From NCBI RefSeq assembly GCF_030846775.1, contig NZ_CP132910.1, positions 4,777,001 to 4,841,000 of the forward strand: a stretch of 64,000 nt of DNA, in the 5' to 3' direction. Source of the stretch: Geothrix sp. 21YS21S-2 (lineage in GTDB: Bacteria; Acidobacteriota; Holophagae; Holophagales; Holophagaceae). The notes beneath the pieces were generated by a model. It was given only the letters and a program-made list of their open reading frames with translations. It did not search any database and was not told the DNA's origin. This document shows positions 12,078-60,883 of this stretch, piece by piece. How positions within the stretch are numbered: the first letter of the stretch is position 1; every line of letters begins with the position of its first letter. Made by a program: the position numbers and the translations under genes.

Positions 12078-12794
12078 ATGAATCTGCGCCTGCTTCTTGT
12101 CCCCGCCCTTCTGGTGGTCCAGCCCCTGCTCGCGACCAACCCGCCCGGCTACGACGTCGAGGCCGATCTCAGGGCCCAGGCGTGGCTCGACAAGCTGCAG
12201 GAGGAGGCACTCGCCCAGGGCCTGGCGACCCTGCAGGCTGCCCGGAAGGGACCGGTGCCTGTCGGTGCCCAGGCCAGGGCCCAGGAATGCCTGGTCCAGG
12301 TGGTCGGCAGCATGGCGGCGGTGCACCCCGACGCCTTGAGTTATCCAGGCAGCCAGGTGGCTTTCAGCTACCATGCGGTCATTCAGCCCAGGCTCGCGGA
12401 AAACGGCTTTCCGGGCTGGCAGGACCTGGGCGCGACGCTGGTCGCCCTGGGCTGGATGAAGGCGCCCCAGGCCTCCGTCCGTTCCAGCAGCAGTACGGGC
12501 TCCTCCAGTTCCAGCACCACCACTCTCCCCGCCACCCCTTCCGCCAGCCCGGCCAAGGCGCCCGCCACTCCGGCCCCCGCCGCCAGGACCCTGGCCACGG
12601 AAGGCCTGACCTTCCAGGAGGCCACGGCCCTGATCGCCGCCCTGAATCCCATGCTCCCCGACGGCACCTACGATGTTCCGGCCCTGAACGCGCGCCTCGC
12701 CACCGTGGCCTCCCACGACCTGGCGCTGGCCGCGAACCTGATGGGCCATTACCGCCTCGAGCAGGCCCGCCTGAAGGCGGCGATCACCCGCTAA
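12078..12794 (+). CDS. hypothetical exported protein with Ser/Thr/Pro linker
   Basis: 238 residues. Signal peptide MNLRLLLVPALLVVQPLLA, then a helical segment of ~90 residues, a low-complexity linker rich in Ser, Thr, Pro and Ala (~135-175), and a helical C-terminal domain (LTFQEATALIAALNPMLPDG...). GGAG lies 7-9 bp before the ATG, which decides the start over an upstream one. No known family was recognised. It is directly followed (TAA-ATG) by a small ORF in the same frame. Confidence 0.65.
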   Translation: MNLRLLLVPALLVVQPLLATNPPGYDVEADLRAQAWLDKLQEEALAQGLATLQAARKGPVPVGAQARAQECLVQVVGSMAAVHPDALSYPGSQVAFSYHAVIQPRLAENGFPGWQDLGATLVALGWMKAPQASVRSSSSTGSSSSSTTTLPATPSASPAKAPATPAPAARTLATEGLTFQEATALIAALNPMLPDGTYDVPALNARLATVASHDLALAANLMGHYRLEQARLKAAITR

Positions 12795-13013
12795 ATGCGC
12801 GCCACCCCGGGCCTCACGTTGCACACCAGGGCCCAGGCCGTCCACAACGCCAGCAGCGCCGTTCTTGGGCTTGGCATCGGGGGGCCTCCCATTGGAGGTG
12901 TTGGGGCTGCAGGCGGCGCAATTATTGCTGGTGTTGGAGCATTGAGTTATACAGGAGTCACAGAGGGTATTAAATTGCAGAAAACGTTGAGCACGATTAA
13001 ATATAACTGGTAA
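12795..13013 (+). CDS. small Gly-rich hydrophobic protein, function unknown
   Basis: 72 residues beginning right after the upstream stop codon, so any translation is probably coupled. The middle is Gly/Ala-rich and hydrophobic (GGPPIGGVGAAGGAIIAGVG), resembling a glycine-zipper or bacteriocin-like membrane helix, and the end is basic and AT-rich. Base composition shifts from GC-rich to AT-rich inside the gene (~12880), suggesting a DNA junction. The frame stays open for 23 more codons beyond its TAA stop to a TAG at 13083. It could be a real small peptide or the remnant of a longer protein. Confidence 0.35.
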   Translation: MRATPGLTLHTRAQAVHNASSAVLGLGIGGPPIGGVGAAGGAIIAGVGALSYTGVTEGIKLQKTLSTIKYNW

Positions 13014-13121
13014 GCAAATTACAGAGCAATCCAAAATTATTCAGATATAAACTGCGCTGGAGCTCTTCCTGAAATTCGGTATTAGGTGCCTTTTGGGCCA
13101 ATTATGTTGAAAGAACTAGCA

Positions 13122-13346
13122 ATGAAACACAAAAGAATAAAATGGACCCAGGCTATAATAATTCTTGTGTCATTGTGTCTGCAAAAACCTTTTTATAAAT
13201 TAACTGGTATAAACAATTGCATTGATAATCTTGGATTTTTCCCAAGCCTTGCAGTTGCATCCATGGTGCTTCTCGGAATTATGCATATTTTATTTTTATT
13301 TGTTTATCGTATCATTAAACACCTTTGTCCTGATTTTTTCGCTTAA
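13122..13346 (+). CDS. small membrane protein A of a tandem paralogous pair
   Basis: 74 residues from ATG 13122 (MKHKRIKW), preceded by GAAAG; alternative starts are ATG 13104 and GTG 13086, the last giving 86 residues. Two hydrophobic helices (AIIILVSLCL and VASMVLLGIMHILFLFVY) flank a conserved loop, KLTGINNCIDNLGFFP, and the end is HLCPDFFA. The protein aligns along its length with the next gene, including the G-I-x-N-C-I-x-x-L motif. Codons are AT-rich, unlike almost all other genes in the window. No family recognised; an immunity-type or inner-membrane role is a guess. Confidence 0.55.
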   Translation: MKHKRIKWTQAIIILVSLCLQKPFYKLTGINNCIDNLGFFPSLAVASMVLLGIMHILFLFVYRIIKHLCPDFFA

Positions 13347-13428
13347 TGACTCATTTTATACGGGATCTGATTCGGGTGATAGCTGCTAAGCGAAGTCAAA
13401 TTCATGGCAAATTGAACAGAGGTGGTGA

Positions 13429-13689
13429 ATGGTTAAAATGAATAATATCAATATTATACGAATCGCAATTATTTTGCCTTGTGTTGCTCTTAAGCAACCC
13501 ATTAATAATTTCCTTGGTATTGGCAATTGTATTCATGATTTGACTCTATTCCAGCGGTTCGTGTTTGAGATCGTAACGCTTTTGGGCCTGTTCTACATGT
13601 TTGGCTTCATTGTATTTAATTTTTTTAAATTATGTTATCCGTCTTGTTCTGCCAAAATGAATGAGCTGATCCACAAGAATTCAAGATAA
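13429..13689 (+). CDS. small membrane protein B of a tandem paralogous pair
   Basis: 86 residues. The start ATG follows a strong ribosome site, AGAGGTGG, which is the best evidence that this islet is translated. Helix 1 (IIRIAIILPCVAL), the loop with FLGIGNCIHDLTLF, and helix 2 (VTLLGLFYMFGFIVF) followed by LCYPSC match the layout of protein A; the C-terminal tail is longer and polar. Shared Cys in the loop and a Cys-Pro near the end are notable. AT-rich codon use suggests horizontal origin. Function unknown. Confidence 0.65.
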   Translation: MVKMNNINIIRIAIILPCVALKQPINNFLGIGNCIHDLTLFQRFVFEIVTLLGLFYMFGFIVFNFFKLCYPSCSAKMNELIHKNSR

Positions 13690-14129
13690 CCGCCCTGCGA
13701 ATCACCCCTGATCCGGCGTCGGACAACTTTCCTTCCCCAATTCCGGTCCTTTATCCCAAACCTGGCGGCCGCGTCGTTTGGGATGATGGTATTAATTGCA
13801 GCCGCTAACCTTCCCGGGTGGTCCGGAGAAGGGCAGGACCTTCAAGGCGCCTTGAAGTCCGTGGAGGCTTTCTGCTCAGCCGAGTTCGACGGCAAGTATC
13901 AGAATAGTTAGTAAATCGGGCTCGCAGGAACACGAACGCACACCTGTGCCGGCGCGATGACGCGCAGCCCGATCTTACGTTCTTGGACAGGCCCGGATCG
14001 GTCCCTGGACCCGAGCTTCGCCCTTCGGGATCACTGTTCCCGGCGGTAGGCTGAGATGCGGAAAGACCCTGGTCCACCTACCCCAATCGGGCAGGCCGGG
14101 AACTGACGTCACGGGCGTTGCAGGGACGG
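13690..14129. other. intergenic region between AT-rich islet and transposase remnant
   Basis: No gene is supported. It returns to GC-rich composition. A perfect 9-bp inverted repeat, ATCCCAAAC (13753-13761) / GTTTGGGAT (13776-13784), with a 14-nt loop could be a terminator for the small-protein genes or an end structure of the IS91-type element. Open frames on the minus strand here (for example 13805-14077) are Arg/Ser-rich and lack ribosome sites. Confidence 0.45.
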
Positions 14130-15074
14130 TCAGCTTGGATCGTCCCCGGGCGGTGCGGGGACGGCGGCGGGCAGGGGTGTCCGGCGGAGGGCGCCACCGC
14201 AAACGGGGCAGATCTGGGATTCGCGCTCCAGACGTTCCAGATCAGACGGGTCCTTCCGGGGCTTCTTGCAGGTACCGACGATGGCCCTGGCCTTCTCCAG
14301 AAGGCCGCCAGCCTGGAGGGAGCCGTAGAGGCCGGCATGACGGATCTTGTGGAAGCCCGGGGGAAGGACGTGCTGAACCAGGCGCTCGAGGAATTCCACG
14401 GGGTGGACCGTGGCGGTCTTGCCGTTCTTGGTGGCGAACGTCACCCGGTCCTCGGTGACGTTCAGGAGCCGGGAGTTGGCGATGCCGACCCAGCGGGTAT
14501 ACCGGGCCAGGTAGCCGGCCACGTGGCTGGAGTGCGCGAATGGCTTCTTGGCGTGGACGCCCCAGTCCAGGTCGCTGACCGCGGCCATCCGGGTAGCGTA
14601 AAGTTCCTTCTGAACCTCCGGGAAGGCGCCCTTCTCCTGGAGCCTGCCCAGGGCGTTGAGCATCTTGGCCCGGAACACCTCACCCATCATGGCCACCGGG
14701 AACAGGTACCTCTTCCCACTGGGGATGAAGCTTCCGCCGTCGAAGGCGAGGCCCCCGGCGGTGACCCGTACGTGGAGGTGGGGGTGGAAGGTCAACTCCC
14801 GGGTCCAGGTGTGAAGCACCAGCAGCAGGCCCGGGGTGGCCTTCAGGCGGGTCCGGAACAGCTTCAGAAGGGTCCGGGTCGCGGCCCGAAATAGGGCGCC
14901 GTAGAACTTGGCCGGGTACTGCCGGGCCAGGAACCGCAATTCCGCCGGGAGGGCGAACACCAGGTGGTAGTGGGGCAGGTCCAGAAGGCGCTGGGTCTCC
15001 TTGTCGAGCCAGCGTTCCTGGGCCAGGGCCTGGCACTTGGGGCAGTGCCGGTCGCGGCAGGAGTTATAGGCAAT
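14130..15074 (-). pseudogene. 5'-truncated IS91-family transposase (HUH, Y2 type)
   Basis: The open frame runs from ATT at 15074, directly after an in-frame TAA. It begins IAYNSCRDRHCPKCQALAQE, the second half of the N-terminal zinc-binding domain, and continues through FALPAELR, the HUH motif FHPHLHVRV, and AGYLARYTR, which holds the two catalytic tyrosines (YxxxY), to a C-terminal zinc-knuckle-like CPVCGG. The first Cys pair of the zinc domain and the start codon are missing, so the gene is probably dead unless translated from the internal GTG at 14960. IS91 elements move by rolling-circle replication and can carry adjacent DNA. The 130 bp upstream holds no matching sequence. Confidence 0.85.
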
Positions 15075-15203
15075 TTAGGGCCGAGTTGTGGAGGGCCAGC
15101 CGGGAGGCACCGATCGCCTGCTGCCGGAGGACGTCCACCCGCCTCCGCACCGATTCCTGGCTGGCATCGGATGGGTCGTGGCCCAGAATTTCCTCGGAGC
15201 CGC

Positions 15204-16715
15204 CTAGTCTTCCCGGCCGTGCCCGCTGAGCGGGATGTCGTAGCCGGCGTCCCGGTATTCGTTGATCTTGTTCCGCACGGTGCGCAAGGCGATGTCCAGC
15301 TTCTGGGAGCAGTGGGTGCGGTTCCCCTCCAGGGCCGAGAGCGTGGACAGCAGCCAGAACCGCTCCAGCTCGGGCAGGGGGATGCCCAGGGGCAGGGCCA
15401 CCAGGGTGCCCAGGGGCACGCCCTTCAGGGGCTCGGCGGGGTCGGCGATGCGCAGGTCGCCGGAGGCGGCGGGGGGGGCGGGCAGGGCCTCCTCCAGGGG
15501 GCGCAGGAAGGGGGATTCCCGGGGCGGCTCGGGGGGGTCCTCGGGCAGGCCTTCCAGCTGGGCGGGGTCCAGGAGCCAGGCGAGGTCCTTGTGGGTGAGG
15601 AGGTCGCCGGGGTTCAGCACCACGCAGCGCTGCACGGCGTTCTCCAGCTCGCGGATGTTGCCGGGCCAGGGGTGGCGGGTGAGGGCCTCCCGGAAGCTGG
15701 GGGAGAGGCGGGGGGTGGGGCGGTCGTTCTCCCGGGCGTAGCGCTCGGCGAAGTGCAGGGCCAGGAGCTCCAGGTCGGCGGTGCGCTCCCGAAGGGGGGG
15801 CAGGCGCAGGGGGATGACGTTGAGGCGGTAGTAGAGGTCCTCCCGGAACCGGCCTTCCTTCACTTCCGTGGCCAGGTCGCGGTTGGTGAGGGCAATGAGG
15901 CGGACATCCACGGCGATGGGGCGGTTTCCGCCCAGGCGATCGACGGTGCGCTCCTGGATGGCCCGCAGGAGCTTGCCCTGGAGGGCCAGGGGCAGTTCGC
16001 CGATCTCGTCCAGCACCAGGGTGCCGCCGTCGGCCTGCTCGAAGCGGCCCGGCTTGGCGCTGGTGGCGCCGGTGAAGGCCCCCTTCTCGAACCCGAAGAG
16101 CTCGGATTCCAGGAGGTTCTCGGGGATGGCCGCGCAGTTGATGGCCACGAAGGCCGCCTTGCGCCGGGGGCTGGAGGTGTGGATGAGCTTGGCCAGGAGC
16201 TCCTTGCCGGTGCCGCTCTCGGCCTGGATGAGGATGGTGGCCTTGCTGTCGGCGGCGCGCCGGGCCAGGGCCAGGGTCTCGGCCAGGGCCGGGTCCTGGG
16301 TGAGGATGACGGGGGCCTCGGCGGGGATCTCGGCCTTGAGGCGGTCGTCGCTGCGGATGGCCTTGCGCACGGCCTGGACCAGCTCGTCGGGGCTGAAGGG
16401 CTTGGAGAGGTAGTCGAAGGCCCCCAGGCGCATGGCCTCCCGGGCCGTGTCCAGGCTGCCGAAGGCCGTCACCAGGAGCACCGGGAGGCCCGTGTCCAGG
16501 GCCTTGAGCCGCGCGGTGAGCTGGAGGCCGTCCATGCCGGTCATGCGCAGGTCGGTGACCACGGCGTCGAAGGCGCCGGGCCGGGTCATGCGCAGGGCGT
16601 CCTCGCCGGACCGCGCCTGTTCCGTGACGAAGCCGGCGCGCTTGAGGCTCAAGGCCATGCCATCCCGCATGCCGGGATCGTCATCCACCACCAGAACTCT
16701 CAGAGGATTCGCCAT
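15204..16715 (-). CDS. NtrC-family sigma-54-dependent response regulator
   Basis: 503 residues from MANPLRVLVVDDD (an ATG 6 codons earlier is possible). Receiver domain 1-120 with phospho-acceptor D55 in VVTDLRM and a conserved K in LSKPFS; AAA+ domain with Walker A AESGTGKE, the sigma-54 contact loop GAFTGA, Walker B GGTLVLDEIGELP, and R-fingers in FREDLYYRLNV; C-terminal Fis-type HTH ending TVRNKINEYRDAGYDI. It should activate RpoN promoters on phosphorylation. No histidine kinase gene adjoins; instead it follows a degenerate activator-like gene and hemolysin III in one co-directional string. Confidence 0.95.
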   Translation of the reverse strand: MANPLRVLVVDDDPGMRDGMALSLKRAGFVTEQARSGEDALRMTRPGAFDAVVTDLRMTGMDGLQLTARLKALDTGLPVLLVTAFGSLDTAREAMRLGAFDYLSKPFSPDELVQAVRKAIRSDDRLKAEIPAEAPVILTQDPALAETLALARRAADSKATILIQAESGTGKELLAKLIHTSSPRRKAAFVAINCAAIPENLLESELFGFEKGAFTGATSAKPGRFEQADGGTLVLDEIGELPLALQGKLLRAIQERTVDRLGGNRPIAVDVRLIALTNRDLATEVKEGRFREDLYYRLNVIPLRLPPLRERTADLELLALHFAERYARENDRPTPRLSPSFREALTRHPWPGNIRELENAVQRCVVLNPGDLLTHKDLAWLLDPAQLEGLPEDPPEPPRESPFLRPLEEALPAPPAASGDLRIADPAEPLKGVPLGTLVALPLGIPLPELERFWLLSTLSALEGNRTHCSQKLDIALRTVRNKINEYRDAGYDIPLSGHGRED

Positions 16716-16738
16716 GGTCCGCCCTGTCTCCATTCAGT

Positions 16739-28200: not shown

Positions 28201-29155
28201 TAGCCTGGTAGCCCGAAATGCCCGCCTGGACAGCGCCCGAAACGGTGATGGGGGTGGCGGCCAGGGCCGGCAGGACCTTCACCAGCGTCTGGGACGACAC
28301 CAGGGGGGTGGTTCCGCTGTGGACGGTCAAGGTGTAGGTGGTGTCCCCAGCGGGGGTGACCACCACCGCCGTGCCGCTGGTGATGGGCAGGCCGCCGGGC
28401 TCGATGAGGCCCGTGCCGCCGGTGAAGGTGGCCATCAGGGACGTGGGCCTGCCGGCGGTGATCCGGGCCGGCGACGCCTTGAAGTCGGTGATGGTGGAGA
28501 CCCTGACGGCGACCGTGAAGGTGCTGGCCTTGGCCTCCTTGCCGGCGGCGTTGGAGACGACGCAGGTCAGCACCAGGTCTCCGGTGGCGCCCGCATCGAA
28601 GGTGACGGTGTTCTCGTTCTGGCCGGAGGTGATGGAGCCGTTGCTGATGCTCCACTTATAGGTACTGCCCGCCTCGAAGGGGACCGTGGCCACCATGCCG
28701 GTCTGGAACGTCGCCACCTGGGCCGGCGCCTGGATCTCGGGGGCCGCGGGCGCCTGCGCCACCTTCACGGTGACGACCCGGTGCACCGCGGCGTTGTCGG
28801 CGCCCTTGACGGTGAGGGTGTAGTCGGTGTCCTGGTCCGGCGAAACCGTCAGGCTTCCGCCGCTGGTCACGGGGCCGAGGTTCGGATCGAGGGTGGCGGT
28901 TCCCCCCTCGAACGCGAACGTCAGGATCGCCGAGTCGCCTTTCGTGATGATCGACTTGTCCGCCTGGAAGCTGGCGATCTTCGGCGCCGCCGGTTCCGTG
29001 GGGGTGGGAACGGACCCGCCGGAGCCGGACCGCCTGGTGCAGGCCGGGGCCAGGATCAGGAGGAAGGACGCCGCTGCGGCCGTGATCAGGTGCACGGCCA
29101 CTCCCGGGGAGGGGGCGGGTGTGGGTTGAGGGTGGATGGGTTCGGGAAGGGCCAT
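25217..29155 (-). CDS. lipoprotein-like surface protein with Ig-like repeats and an NHL beta-propeller
   Basis: 1312 residues. The N-terminus has a membrane helix ending LILAPACTRRS, a weak lipobox (Ala at -3), then a Ser/Gly linker. Residues ~50-640 hold repeated Ig/PKD-like modules with recurring ITSG, DTTYTLTV and TFTAG motifs. About a dozen NHL repeats follow to the C-terminus (GLAMDAAGNNYVADTLNHTI and variants), enough for two propellers. Such proteins are usually extracellular or outer-membrane-attached and bind proteins or carbohydrates. GGAGA precedes ATG 29155, while an ATG 8 codons upstream lacks a site. No partner gene adjoins. Confidence 0.8.
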   Translation of the reverse strand: MALPEPIHPQPTPAPSPGVAVHLITAAAASFLLILAPACTRRSGSGGSVPTPTEPAAPKIASFQADKSIITKGDSAILTFAFEGGTATLDPNLGPVTSGGSLTVSPDQDTDYTLTVKGADNAAVHRVVTVKVAQAPAAPEIQAPAQVATFQTGMVATVPFEAGSTYKWSISNGSITSGQNENTVTFDAGATGDLVLTCVVSNAAGKEAKASTFTVAVRVSTITDFKASPARITAGRPTSLMATFTGGTGLIEPGGLPITSGTAVVVTPAGDTTYTLTVHSGTTPLVSSQTLVKVLPALAATPITVSGAVQAGISGYQARVAPQAGCTYRWRIGNGTLTAGDGTDTVTFTAGVAGPLTLDCTITNPAGDSIDAPSLALTVQSAPAPGALAVSLLRPAFPAYGGGLRAEVNPEPGATYAWTLSDGTIDLGAGTNAIVFTAGGPAPATLRCAMTLADGSTREGSVGFTPTYPVIDQFAPNQSVVTAGRNATLNFTFSGGTGTLSPGNLAVTSPGSVQVAPGTYTLTVLDAAGNVDRAERTISTVPMPTITRFTTSHPILGPGREADLTAVFDAGPGGTAQVETLGAVTSGQPISTGPLQNGRRFALRVTNAGGDSITRDVTVRVAALELVAGFPSGYGNGDGAARFARFRNPRGLAMDAAGNNYVADTLNHTIRKVAADGTVTTVAGNPGVPGSADGQGREARFNTPVGLALDASGNIYVADFGNATIRKVAVDGTVSTLAGVPGTQGSTDGTNGDVLFREPYGIAVSPDGTQVFVSDRSSRTIRAFNPGMAPLVTMTIAGQDGVPAFMDGPGATARFRQPGGLALGGNGSLYVTDTTSSVIRKLTPQADGTYFVSTVAGRDLARTLNGVTDGDGLTVATFTNPIQIAVDSANNLYVTDLAHKSVRKLTQTPNGYLVSTLAGDTSAMGTLDGHPLTQARFTQPGGLAVDATGTVFLADGQAGVNGPFGNAIRAIPAASNTYTVAGTLPSAGAVNGVGTGAKFREPRGSVSDAAGVAYVCDTQNHAIRRISPDGTVTLLAGNGTPGAVDATGTGARFNQPYAIAIDSAGVLFVADMMNHAIRRVAQDGVVTTVAGDVTQPGGFADGLGTAARFNRPSGIAVDGAGNLYVADRDNHVIRKIDPTGQVTTLAGDPLRADSLDGPAGQGTLTAPFGIALDGAGSLLVSDFGSHTIRKVNLATGALSTLAGDAGAPGFPTDPGYVDANGSLARFNKPASLAVDSDGNAYVADFNNEALRMIAPDGTVTTVLGFAGYPRMRGVAPGPLPTAFAEPKGVSVDPATGNLLVSTPDAVMKVAFR

Positions 29156-29767
29156 AGGTGGGGTCTCCAACTGGATCATTTTAATTTATAGTTAATATAA
29201 TGCAAACATTTTAGTAACTTCGGCACGATCGATTTCACGATGTTTGACTTTTAAATATTTTATTTTTTAACACTTAGAATTAAGGTAATCGGATTGTGTT
29301 TCAGGTCGGAATATTAAAAACATTAAATAAATATACAAATGGAATCCACGGATGGAAGCTCCGGACCGGCCAAGCTGGTGACGCGGCGCCAGGGCGGGCA
29401 CCGGGGCCTGCACTTGTATAAAACTTAGAATTGTGGTGCTTGCCGATTCTTGAGATCGGGTGGGTCGGAACCTTGGGCCAGGCTTCAACCCCGGCTCACC
29501 CCTTAGCGGAGTTCAAAGGTGGCGCCATGACCCCAACGCTCCCGGCCGGACTCCTTCCGTTGGCGCCGGCCCCGCCGGCGGCAACGAACCCGGGCGTCCT
29601 GGAGGAAACCGGACCTGCCGCCATCCGAGCGCCACGGTGGAACCCGGGCAGGCCGCCAGAAATCCAGGTACCTAATCCCGGATTCGGCAGCAGGGCCTTG
29701 AATTGGCAGTCGCGCCATTTGGAACGCCTGATTTCCTTGGGTTTGTCGAGAACGCAGGGAGGATCGG
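29156..29767. other. AT-rich upstream region followed by gene-free GC-rich DNA
   Basis: From 29175 to 29345 the sequence is very AT-rich (TTAATTTATAGTTAATATAA and similar), probably holding the promoter of the NHL protein gene. From 29350 to 29767 I see no supported gene; the open frames present have no ribosome sites. It may be decayed DNA around the transposase fragment that follows. Confidence 0.5.
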
Positions 29768-59224: not shown

Positions 59225-59662
59225 TTAGATGCGCGCCCGGGGTGGGCCGAGCACCTGCTCGACCTCCTTCTGCACTTCCTCCAGGGAGGAATCGCCGTGG
59301 ATGGCGATGAACAGGGCGTCTTCGCCCGCCACGGTGCCCGCCACGCCCCTGACGGTGGTGCGGTCCACCCGCAGGGCGAGGGCCTGGCCGAGACCCTGGT
59401 GGGTCTGGAGCACGAGGAGATTGGGTGCGGACGGGACGAAGGCGTAGGGCGGGGGGGGCTGGGCGGCGCTGGGGACCCGCTGGTAGCGGCCTCCCCGCTT
59501 GCGGATGGAAAGCCGGGCCAGGCGCCGGGACAGGGTCCCCTGGGTGAGGGCGTAGCCGTCCCTGGCCAGCAGGTCCAGAAGGGTCGCCTGATCGGGCACC
59601 GCATGTTCGGCCAGAAGCCGGAGGATGACTTGATCAATGATTCGTTTTCCGGATTCGATCAC
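59225..59662 (-). CDS. argR: arginine repressor ArgR
   Basis: 145 residues. N-terminal winged helix (ALTQGTLSRRLARL, cf. VTQATVSRDL) and C-terminal oligomerisation/arginine-binding domain with RGVAGTVAGEDALFIAIHGD. As in other ArgR proteins it should be a hexamer that represses arginine biosynthesis genes and may activate breakdown genes; arcA, carAB and rocD in this window are candidate targets. The upstream region is AT-rich and could hold an ArgR box. Confidence 0.88.
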   Translation of the reverse strand: MIESGKRIIDQVILRLLAEHAVPDQATLLDLLARDGYALTQGTLSRRLARLSIRKRGGRYQRVPSAAQPPPPYAFVPSAPNLLVLQTHQGLGQALALRVDRTTVRGVAGTVAGEDALFIAIHGDSSLEEVQKEVEQVLGPPRARI

Positions 59663-59914
59663 TGCGGGTCCTCAAACGGAAGTGATGGGGCTTGCCCCAA
59701 CCCAATCCGTCCATTTCAGGGCTGAAATATGAACAGATCTTGGATTCATTATGCACGAAGGGTCCATTCCGAAATGCAGGAATTGAAATCGAACCGAATC
59801 AACAGCATTTTCGGGGACATGCCCGATTCCGCCTCATGGGTATGGTTTGGCCAAATATAACTAAAATATTGAATTAATCGAATTCATTAAAATTTACGAT
59901 GCATTAATTAACAT
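59663..59914 (-). promoter_or_regulatory. AT-rich argR upstream region
   Basis: Between the xerC/D stop and the argR start, 252 bp with long A/T runs. TGAATT-AATCG-AATTCA (59870-59886) is a palindrome loosely like an ARG box, although with a spacer of 5 rather than the canonical spacing. A second TGAAT-type hit is at 59752. Otherwise nothing recognised. Confidence 0.35.
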
Positions 59915-60883
59915 TTATGATCTTGGGTGCATCCGGTCGTACAGCGCCCTGAGCCGGGTCTGGTGCACGTGGGTGTAGATCTGGGTGGTGGAGATGTCCG
60001 CATGGCCGAGCATCGACTGCACGGCCCTCAGATCGGCGCCATGGTCCAGGAGGTGGGTGGCGAAGGCGTGGCGCAGCACATGGGGGCTCACGGCCTCCTG
60101 GCGGATGCCCGCCCGGACCGCGTAGGCCTTCAGGAGGCGCCAGAACTGCTGCCGGGTGAGGGGTTCCCCCCGCCTTCCCACGAACAGGGTGTCGTCCTGG
60201 GGCCTGAAGGAGGGGCGCAGGGCCAGCCACCGGCGCACCCAGTGCTCGGCGCTCTCGCCGAAGGGGATCAGGCGCTCCTTCCGGCCCTTGCCCATCACCT
60301 TGAGGAAGCCCTCGTCCAGGAACACCGTGAGGCCGGAAAGGCCCGCCAGCTCGGAGACCCGGAGGCCCGAGGCGTAGAGCAGCTCGATCCACGCCCGGTC
60401 CCGCACGCCCAGAGGCGCGTTCAGGTCGGGCGCGCCCAGGAGGGCCTCCACCTGGGTTTCGGAAAGGGTCCTGGGAAGGATGCGGGGAGGGCGCGGCGGG
60501 CGCACCACGGACTCGGGGCCCGCGGCGCCTTCGCCCTCCATGCGCATGAAACCCAGGAACTGGCGGAGCGCCGAGGAGAGGCGCGCGATGCTCCGTGCCG
60601 CCTTGCCTGTGGACTGCTGTGACACCAGGAACGCCGTGACCCGGTCCCGGTCCAGGTCCGAGGGCGGCAGGCCGGCCCCGGCGGCCCACAGGGCCAGGTG
60701 CTGGAGGTCGGAGAGGTAGCCCGAAACCGTGTGGCGGGAGAGCCCGCGCTCGACGGCGAGGAAGACCTCGAACTCGCGCAGGGAGGTGCTCCACCCTAGG
60801 GGCCAGCCCCTTTCGGGGACGGGATTCTGGACGGGTCGCGGCATGCCATCCAGTCTAGCCGCTTGGCATTCCGGAAAAGCCAT
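59915..60883 (-). CDS. xerD: XerC/XerD-family tyrosine recombinase
   Basis: 322 residues from ATG 60883, chosen because ACGAGG sits just upstream; an ATG 13 codons later is the alternative. N-terminal SAM-like DNA-binding domain and C-terminal catalytic domain with R175 in GLRVSEL, K around 199-202, H268-x-x-R271 in SPHVLRHAF, H294 in MLGHADIS and the nucleophile Y303 in QIYTHV. It resolves chromosome dimers at dif, usually with a XerC partner. XerC versus XerD cannot be decided from the sequence alone. Divergent from acpP. Confidence 0.87.
   Translation of the reverse strand: MAFPECQAARLDGMPRPVQNPVPERGWPLGWSTSLREFEVFLAVERGLSRHTVSGYLSDLQHLALWAAGAGLPPSDLDRDRVTAFLVSQQSTGKAARSIARLSSALRQFLGFMRMEGEGAAGPESVVRPPRPPRILPRTLSETQVEALLGAPDLNAPLGVRDRAWIELLYASGLRVSELAGLSGLTVFLDEGFLKVMGKGRKERLIPFGESAEHWVRRWLALRPSFRPQDDTLFVGRRGEPLTRQQFWRLLKAYAVRAGIRQEAVSPHVLRHAFATHLLDHGADLRAVQSMLGHADISTTQIYTHVHQTRLRALYDRMHPRS

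Follow-up and report, generated by a model that had tools for sequence, protein, structure and literature searches.

Our analysis suggests that the most AT-rich stretch (12,861–13,689) of the window, by which we mean the whole 64,000 nucleotides analysed (positions 4,777,001–4,841,000 of the 5.25-Mb single-contig genome of Geothrix sp. 21YS21S-2, hereafter G000), is very probably an orphan, or displaced, Rhs-CT/immunity cassette, in which a membrane-acting glycine-zipper toxin tip would be dead and two hairpin immunity proteins, A and B, intact. This reading is supported by homology, by gene order, by a relative in which the tip is fused to an Rhs core, by the exclusive linkage of the small genes to the tip, by the differing tails of related proteins and by an empty site in a congener.

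The GC content falls to 0.33–0.40 over 12,901–13,800, with a minimum of 0.33, against a window mean of 0.68 (sd 0.06, 400-base windows), and in the rest of the window it is never below 0.47 on the same scale; the AT-rich islet in GC-rich DNA noted in the preliminary description is thereby borne out. By segment, GC is 0.74 at 12,795–12,860, 0.46 at 12,861–13,088, 0.32 around gene A and 0.33 in gene B, and the foreign DNA begins at about 12,858–12,861. The sole other low-GC spots of the window, 29101–29500 and 59501–60000 (0.47–0.52), lie around gene ends and hold no evident long gene. Table 1 lists the features of the region.

Table 1. Features of the islet and its flank, in window coordinates.
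Feature	Coordinates	Strand	Basis or remark
Rhs-type toxin gene 3′ end, last ~75 codons of the C-terminal tip	12861..13085	+	N-terminus, Rhs core and start of the tip missing; match to the end of the 779-aa L014 protein
In-frame TAA inside the toxin tail, 23 codons ahead of the conserved end	13011..13013	+	Translation
Gene A, encoding a likely immunity protein (two-helix membrane protein, 80 aa)	13104..13346	+	Orthologue L027:2028-2300; profile E 1.5e-30
Gene B, paralogue of A, encoding a likely immunity protein (two-helix membrane protein, 86 aa)	13429..13689	+	Orthologue L027:2339-2602; profile E 1.0e-30
IS91-type element remnant	13900..15196	-	91% identity to G066 copies; Y2_Tnp E 1.8e-42
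Block of islet and IS, absent from congener G068	12795..15203	.	Flanking genes abut in G068

The islet had been proposed to hold a peptide plus immunity-protein cassette headed by a Gly-rich hydrophobic small ORF. Such an ORF is present (12,795–13,013, 72 aa), but it is no free-standing gene: its ATG lies one base past the stop of the upstream gene, in GC-rich DNA ahead of the foreign stretch, and the foreign DNA begins inside it. When searched against G000 itself, the 72 residues weakly matched the end of an 800-codon frame, and protein B gave two further matches directly behind that same frame. The intact 779-aa protein encoded at this locus (L014:6599-8938, that is G000:C1:3,591,598-3,593,937) in turn recovered window positions 12,861–13,082 (E 1.1e-14, one in-frame TAA) as well as a third own-genome copy at 2,737,856. 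The window tail matches the tail profile with E 3.0e-39, again with 1 TAA, and is 72% identical in DNA to that of the congener G067 over 12,858–13,082. Past the TAA, the frame still encodes the conserved end, with 16 of 23 codons giving the G067 residue (...IKYNW*ANYRAIQNYSDINCAGALPEIRY*), and its own stop at 13,083–13,085 lies 18 bases ahead of the gene A start. As the ORF matches the end of the 779-aa protein and the conserved frame continues beyond the TAA, the ORF is, on these matches, the truncated 3′ end of a large Rhs/YD-repeat toxin gene carrying a nonsense codon. The immunity side and the cassette character of the earlier proposal therefore stand, and its peptide does not.

These matches also bear on the idea that the Gly-rich ORF is a small secreted bacteriocin-like peptide with its immunity proteins. 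The ORF is indeed Gly-rich and hydrophobic and has a weak class IIc bacteriocin match (E 0.85); against this, the match reaches 10.1 bits where the cut-off is 27.1, all homologues are ends of longer Rhs-type genes, and the conserved end lies beyond the stop. We found neither a class IIc profile match above the cut-off nor a free-standing peptide with a double-glycine leader, and we consider this explanation highly improbable.

The link to Rhs proteins is clearest in G053, an acidobacterial groundwater MAG, where the tip lies behind a canonical Rhs core (TIGR03696, E 6.8e-14) at L052:4243-6213 (L052 being contig JACQZU010000004.1). This tip gene is a 5′-truncated copy 0.3 kb downstream of another rhs gene, of which 1,305 codons were read; that gene has a tail and an AT-rich small membrane gene (L052:3942-4235) of its own. 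The two rhs genes have a highly similar core stretch in common. Most relatives that share the N-terminal part of the 779-aa protein have lengths of 1,600–1,850 aa; Rhs repeats and a core are present in those tested, and the shell of one matches Tse5 in the PDB (8cp6_B, 1121 aa; E 2.7e-8). L053, L054, L055, L058, L061-L063 and others have a common N-terminal part and/or core with differing, unrelated tails, and behind the tails of full-length relatives there are often small, AT-rich ORFs that encode hydrophobic segments. Given the constant N-terminus and core, the Tse5-like shell and the exchangeable tails, the full-length relatives with their tails are, judged from sequence, a polymorphic toxin family. 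The marks of a CT–immunity module are thus found together: a tip behind an Rhs core (in L052; lost in the window), exchangeable tails, and a small gene downstream that is linked to the tip. As a separate observation, L053-L055, L058, L059, L061-L063 and L065 hold Rhs-type proteins from this bacterial family with many different tails, several with AT-rich small membrane genes behind, and together provide a set of unnamed toxin tips and immunity candidates.

The tail and the small membrane proteins occur at five loci in three genomes (G000, G067 and G053). The preliminary description had suggested looking for the same trio in other genomes, and G067 has it in the same order: tail at L027:1198-2025, A at 2028–2300 and B at 2339–2602; in G053, the tail is followed by a single small protein (L052:6229-6468). 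Across 77 genomes of the family, the small-protein profile gave eight matches with E < 1e-9, confined to these three genomes and every one directly downstream of the tail, the next match having E 0.03; the profile was built from seven of the eight, the eighth, which carries a stop codon and stands second behind the L014 copy, being left outside it. The partner proteins are 79–90 aa long. The tail profile matched only G000 and G053 among 396 genomes of the phylum (a set for which G067 was evidently not drawn), and a profile search of genome contigs with the tail alignment returned L052 only. No match was found in a DNA search of plasmids or in a protein search of the tip against phages and plasmids.

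All five tip copies are truncated or rearranged: the L014 copy is without an Rhs core, the L015, L027 and window copies are without most of the body, and the L052 copy is without its 5′ part; among the five, no complete full-length Rhs protein bearing the tip was found, which counts against the cassette reading. The 779-aa L014 protein has a signal-peptide-like start and a YD/Rhs-like body, with sub-threshold YD/Rhs repeats alone in Pfam/NCBIfam. In it, the N-terminal ~550 Rhs-family residues are joined directly to the tip, and without Rhs repeats and core it is either a functional short form or a deletion product. In the third own-genome copy (L015:7712-8351, or G000:C1:2,737,700-2,738,351), the start of the N-terminus is fused to the tip by a deletion and a frameshift; one intact 81-aa two-helix protein follows, another orphan immunity candidate.

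Genes A and B are intact ORFs, each with two hydrophobic segments, and the earlier claim of two tandem paralogous two-helix membrane proteins holds: their local alignment has 19 of 56 residues identical, 9 sd above shuffles, and the loop motif G-I-x-N-C-I-x-x-L is common to both. The AlphaFold model of protein B, of moderate confidence (pLDDT 73), has two long helices and a loop. The ribosome site described as excellent for the second gene is there (AGAGG, six bases ahead of the B ATG), and of the late Cys-Pro claimed for both proteins, that of A is exact (LCPD) while B reads C-Y-P. Protein A is identical to its G067 orthologue at 25 of 70 positions and to the single G053 protein at 24 of 73; protein B is identical to its orthologue at 31 of 74, 25 sd above shuffles. 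As A–A and B–B are closer than A–B, the duplication probably predates the split of the two species. Between the window and G067, identity is 34–38% for A and B versus 79% for the tail.

On this evidence, A and B are likely immunity proteins against the Rhs-type tip. They could instead be helpers of the toxin (chaperones, export factors or membrane-insertion factors), since gene order alone cannot separate an immunity from a helper role and there are two genes per toxin. However, Rhs relatives with the same N-terminus and core and other tails have other small genes behind them, which means that the small proteins track the tail and not the body, and the much faster evolution of A and B compared with the tail fits immunity better; we therefore regard a helper role as improbable.

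It is also possible, though on balance doubtful, that the islet has the same origin and is now plain debris, A and B being silent and unselected with their decay still pending. The toxin part is plainly inactive and its breakage recent, a stop codon has already arisen in one of the pair of small genes that follow the L014 copy, and no good promoter or terminator signal beyond chance was found at the islet. On the other hand, both A and B are stop-free, B retains its good ribosome site, and the A–A and B–B pairs differ least at second codon positions, a pattern that shows coding constraint over the long run and does not extend to the recent past. The co-directional upstream gene, which ends at 12,794, could supply A and B by read-through.

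The IS91 remnant reported to follow the small proteins is present. Its transposase gene lies at 14,130–14,960, and the remnant corresponds to 2.2-kb copies in G066 with an internal deletion of ~0.8 kb, at whose junction there is a 10-base overlap. In the congener G068, the genes matching 12,078–12,794 and 15,204–16,733 abut, with neither islet nor IS between them; 12,795–15,203 is thus either extra in the window genome or lost in G068. Because islet and IS lie side by side in this block, the islet might be thought cargo of the adjoining element. However, the other cassettes in G000 and G067 have no IS match beside them, and most IS copies are placed away from cassettes. Moreover, with the transposase on the minus strand, it is the 3′ side of its gene that faces the islet, whereas the flanking DNA carried along in one-ended IS91 transposition is that of the other side. 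Carriage by the IS is accordingly quite unlikely, and we treat the IS91 remnant as probably a separate neighbour that is not part of the cassette. The gap between the convergent genes 12078-12794 and 15204-16733 holds nothing in G068, ~2.9 kb in G067, 2.5 kb in G066 and 10 kb in G070; as its content differs among congeners, the 12,794/15,204 gap may be a variable site. Within the G067 counterpart of this gap, L079:1500-2100 (G067:C1 ~3,573,500-3,574,100) is AT-rich, with GC 0.39–0.45.

The intact tip, encoded in G053 at L052:5737-6213, has ~150 residues, with two Gly-rich hydrophobic segments and a conserved end that contains an invariant Cys; its AlphaFold model is unusable (pLDDT 41). Pfam, NCBIfam, PADLOC and PHROGs gave nothing above curated cut-offs for the window proteins, and neither tip nor small proteins matched a named toxin or immunity family above cut-off. 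No Tse5 chain was matched by the tip profile among PDB sequences, where the shell-matching 8cp6_B (1121 aa) may not contain the tip. Several sub-threshold candidates were set aside. In PHROGs, the G053 tip matched lysins and tape-measure proteins; these matches, a SlyB match (E 0.065) and a DUF6861 match (18.2 bits against a cut-off of 28) look like generic matches of Gly/Ala-rich hydrophobic sequence, and the literature searched held no mention of DUF6861. A 61-residue partial match of B to the CBASS-type '2TM' effector of PADLOC reached 16 bits and had no counterpart in A or the G053 protein; in that system, a protein of ~290 aa carries the 2TM domain at its effector end and is accompanied by partner genes, and the neighbouring ORFs include no such partners. 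Tip and small proteins are thus, by homology, a narrowly distributed Rhs-CT/immunity family without a name in the libraries searched.

The orphan arrangement of an Rhs tip with immunity genes is itself of an already known kind. Orphan rhs-CT/rhsI modules of Enterobacteriaceae, as in Salmonella LT2, form main-plus-orphan arrays (PMC3967940), and clusters of paralogous immunity genes are known as polyimmunity loci (PMC3482391). Like these orphans, the window copy is an rhs fragment that has a toxin tip but lacks the parts for initiation and export, adjoined by the intact immunity candidates A and B, and the G053 copy likewise lies downstream of another rhs gene with a common core stretch. Unlike them, the window copy is placed between a host gene and a regulator gene and not beside a main rhs gene that shares its core; its tip is broken, and it has two paralogous immunity candidates.

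Three further systems pair a toxin that depolarises the inner membrane with membrane immunity. Tse5 of Pseudomonas aeruginosa has a C-terminal membrane-depolarising tip countered by Tsi5, a small two-TM immunity protein (PMC9637101, PMC10684867). Kinship to our proteins is detectable in the Rhs shell, but Tse5 has a T6SS/PAAR-type N-terminus in place of the signal-peptide-like one here; the two-TM partner is a resemblance and not homology, and no sequence kinship was detected between Tse5/Tsi5 and the window tip or A and B. The CdiI proteins against CDI ionophores are two-helix hairpins of 72–100 residues and highly polymorphic, with ~30% identity within one group (PMC11630599). Hairpin partners, a glycine zipper in the toxin and immunity candidates divergent relative to the tip recall our cassette, whereas the CdiA carrier, the separate entry domains and the single immunity gene per toxin do not, and no homology was detected. 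EsxX of Staphylococcus aureus, a glycine-zipper depolarising toxin, is countered by the membrane pair ExiC/ExiD, which also occurs as an orphan (PMC12744356). This combination of a glycine-zipper toxin with a pair of membrane proteins resembles ours, but the carrier is of the LXG/T7SS type in a Gram-positive bacterium, and the extra cytoplasmic pair ExiA/ExiB was not seen here. Given the same pairing in all three systems, we infer that the tip is membrane-acting and that the small proteins are membrane immunity proteins. Glycine zippers can also serve translocation instead of toxicity (PMC10240207), which counts against this reading of the tip.

To the observations, the cassette reading adds export, membrane action, immunity function and expression, which we infer as follows. 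An exported Rhs/YD-repeat protein would carry the ~150-residue tip behind its Rhs core; in a neighbouring cell, the glycine-zipper segments of the tip would enter the inner membrane and cause its depolarisation; and the producer would keep the small hairpin proteins, encoded directly behind the tip, in its membrane, where they would block the tip. In the window, the toxin could no longer be made as a deliverable protein, while A and B still could. With N-terminus, Rhs core and half the tip missing and a nonsense codon in what is left, the toxin is dead, while A and B are intact; the pair therefore most likely remains as a shield against relatives in which the tip is still in use. More speculatively, A and B may form a two-part membrane shield, a heterodimer, against lineage-specific glycine-zipper Rhs tips, the pair having been retained after the death of the toxin as a dedicated orphan immunity islet, captured behind a host gene. 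Orthology between the two species holds for the A line and for the B line, and their pairing is therefore old; even so, we hold this extension to be rather unlikely.

In conclusion, an anonymous AT-rich patch becomes a traceable unit of bacterial warfare in a family of Acidobacteriota whose Rhs toxins seem little studied, our literature search having returned general matches only. If the cassette reading is true, profile libraries have missed a tip/immunity family in which two immunity genes have outlived their toxin. Our analysis also suggests that, in GC-rich genomes, a search for toxin tips and immunity genes would do well to start from AT-rich islets that contain small membrane ORFs.
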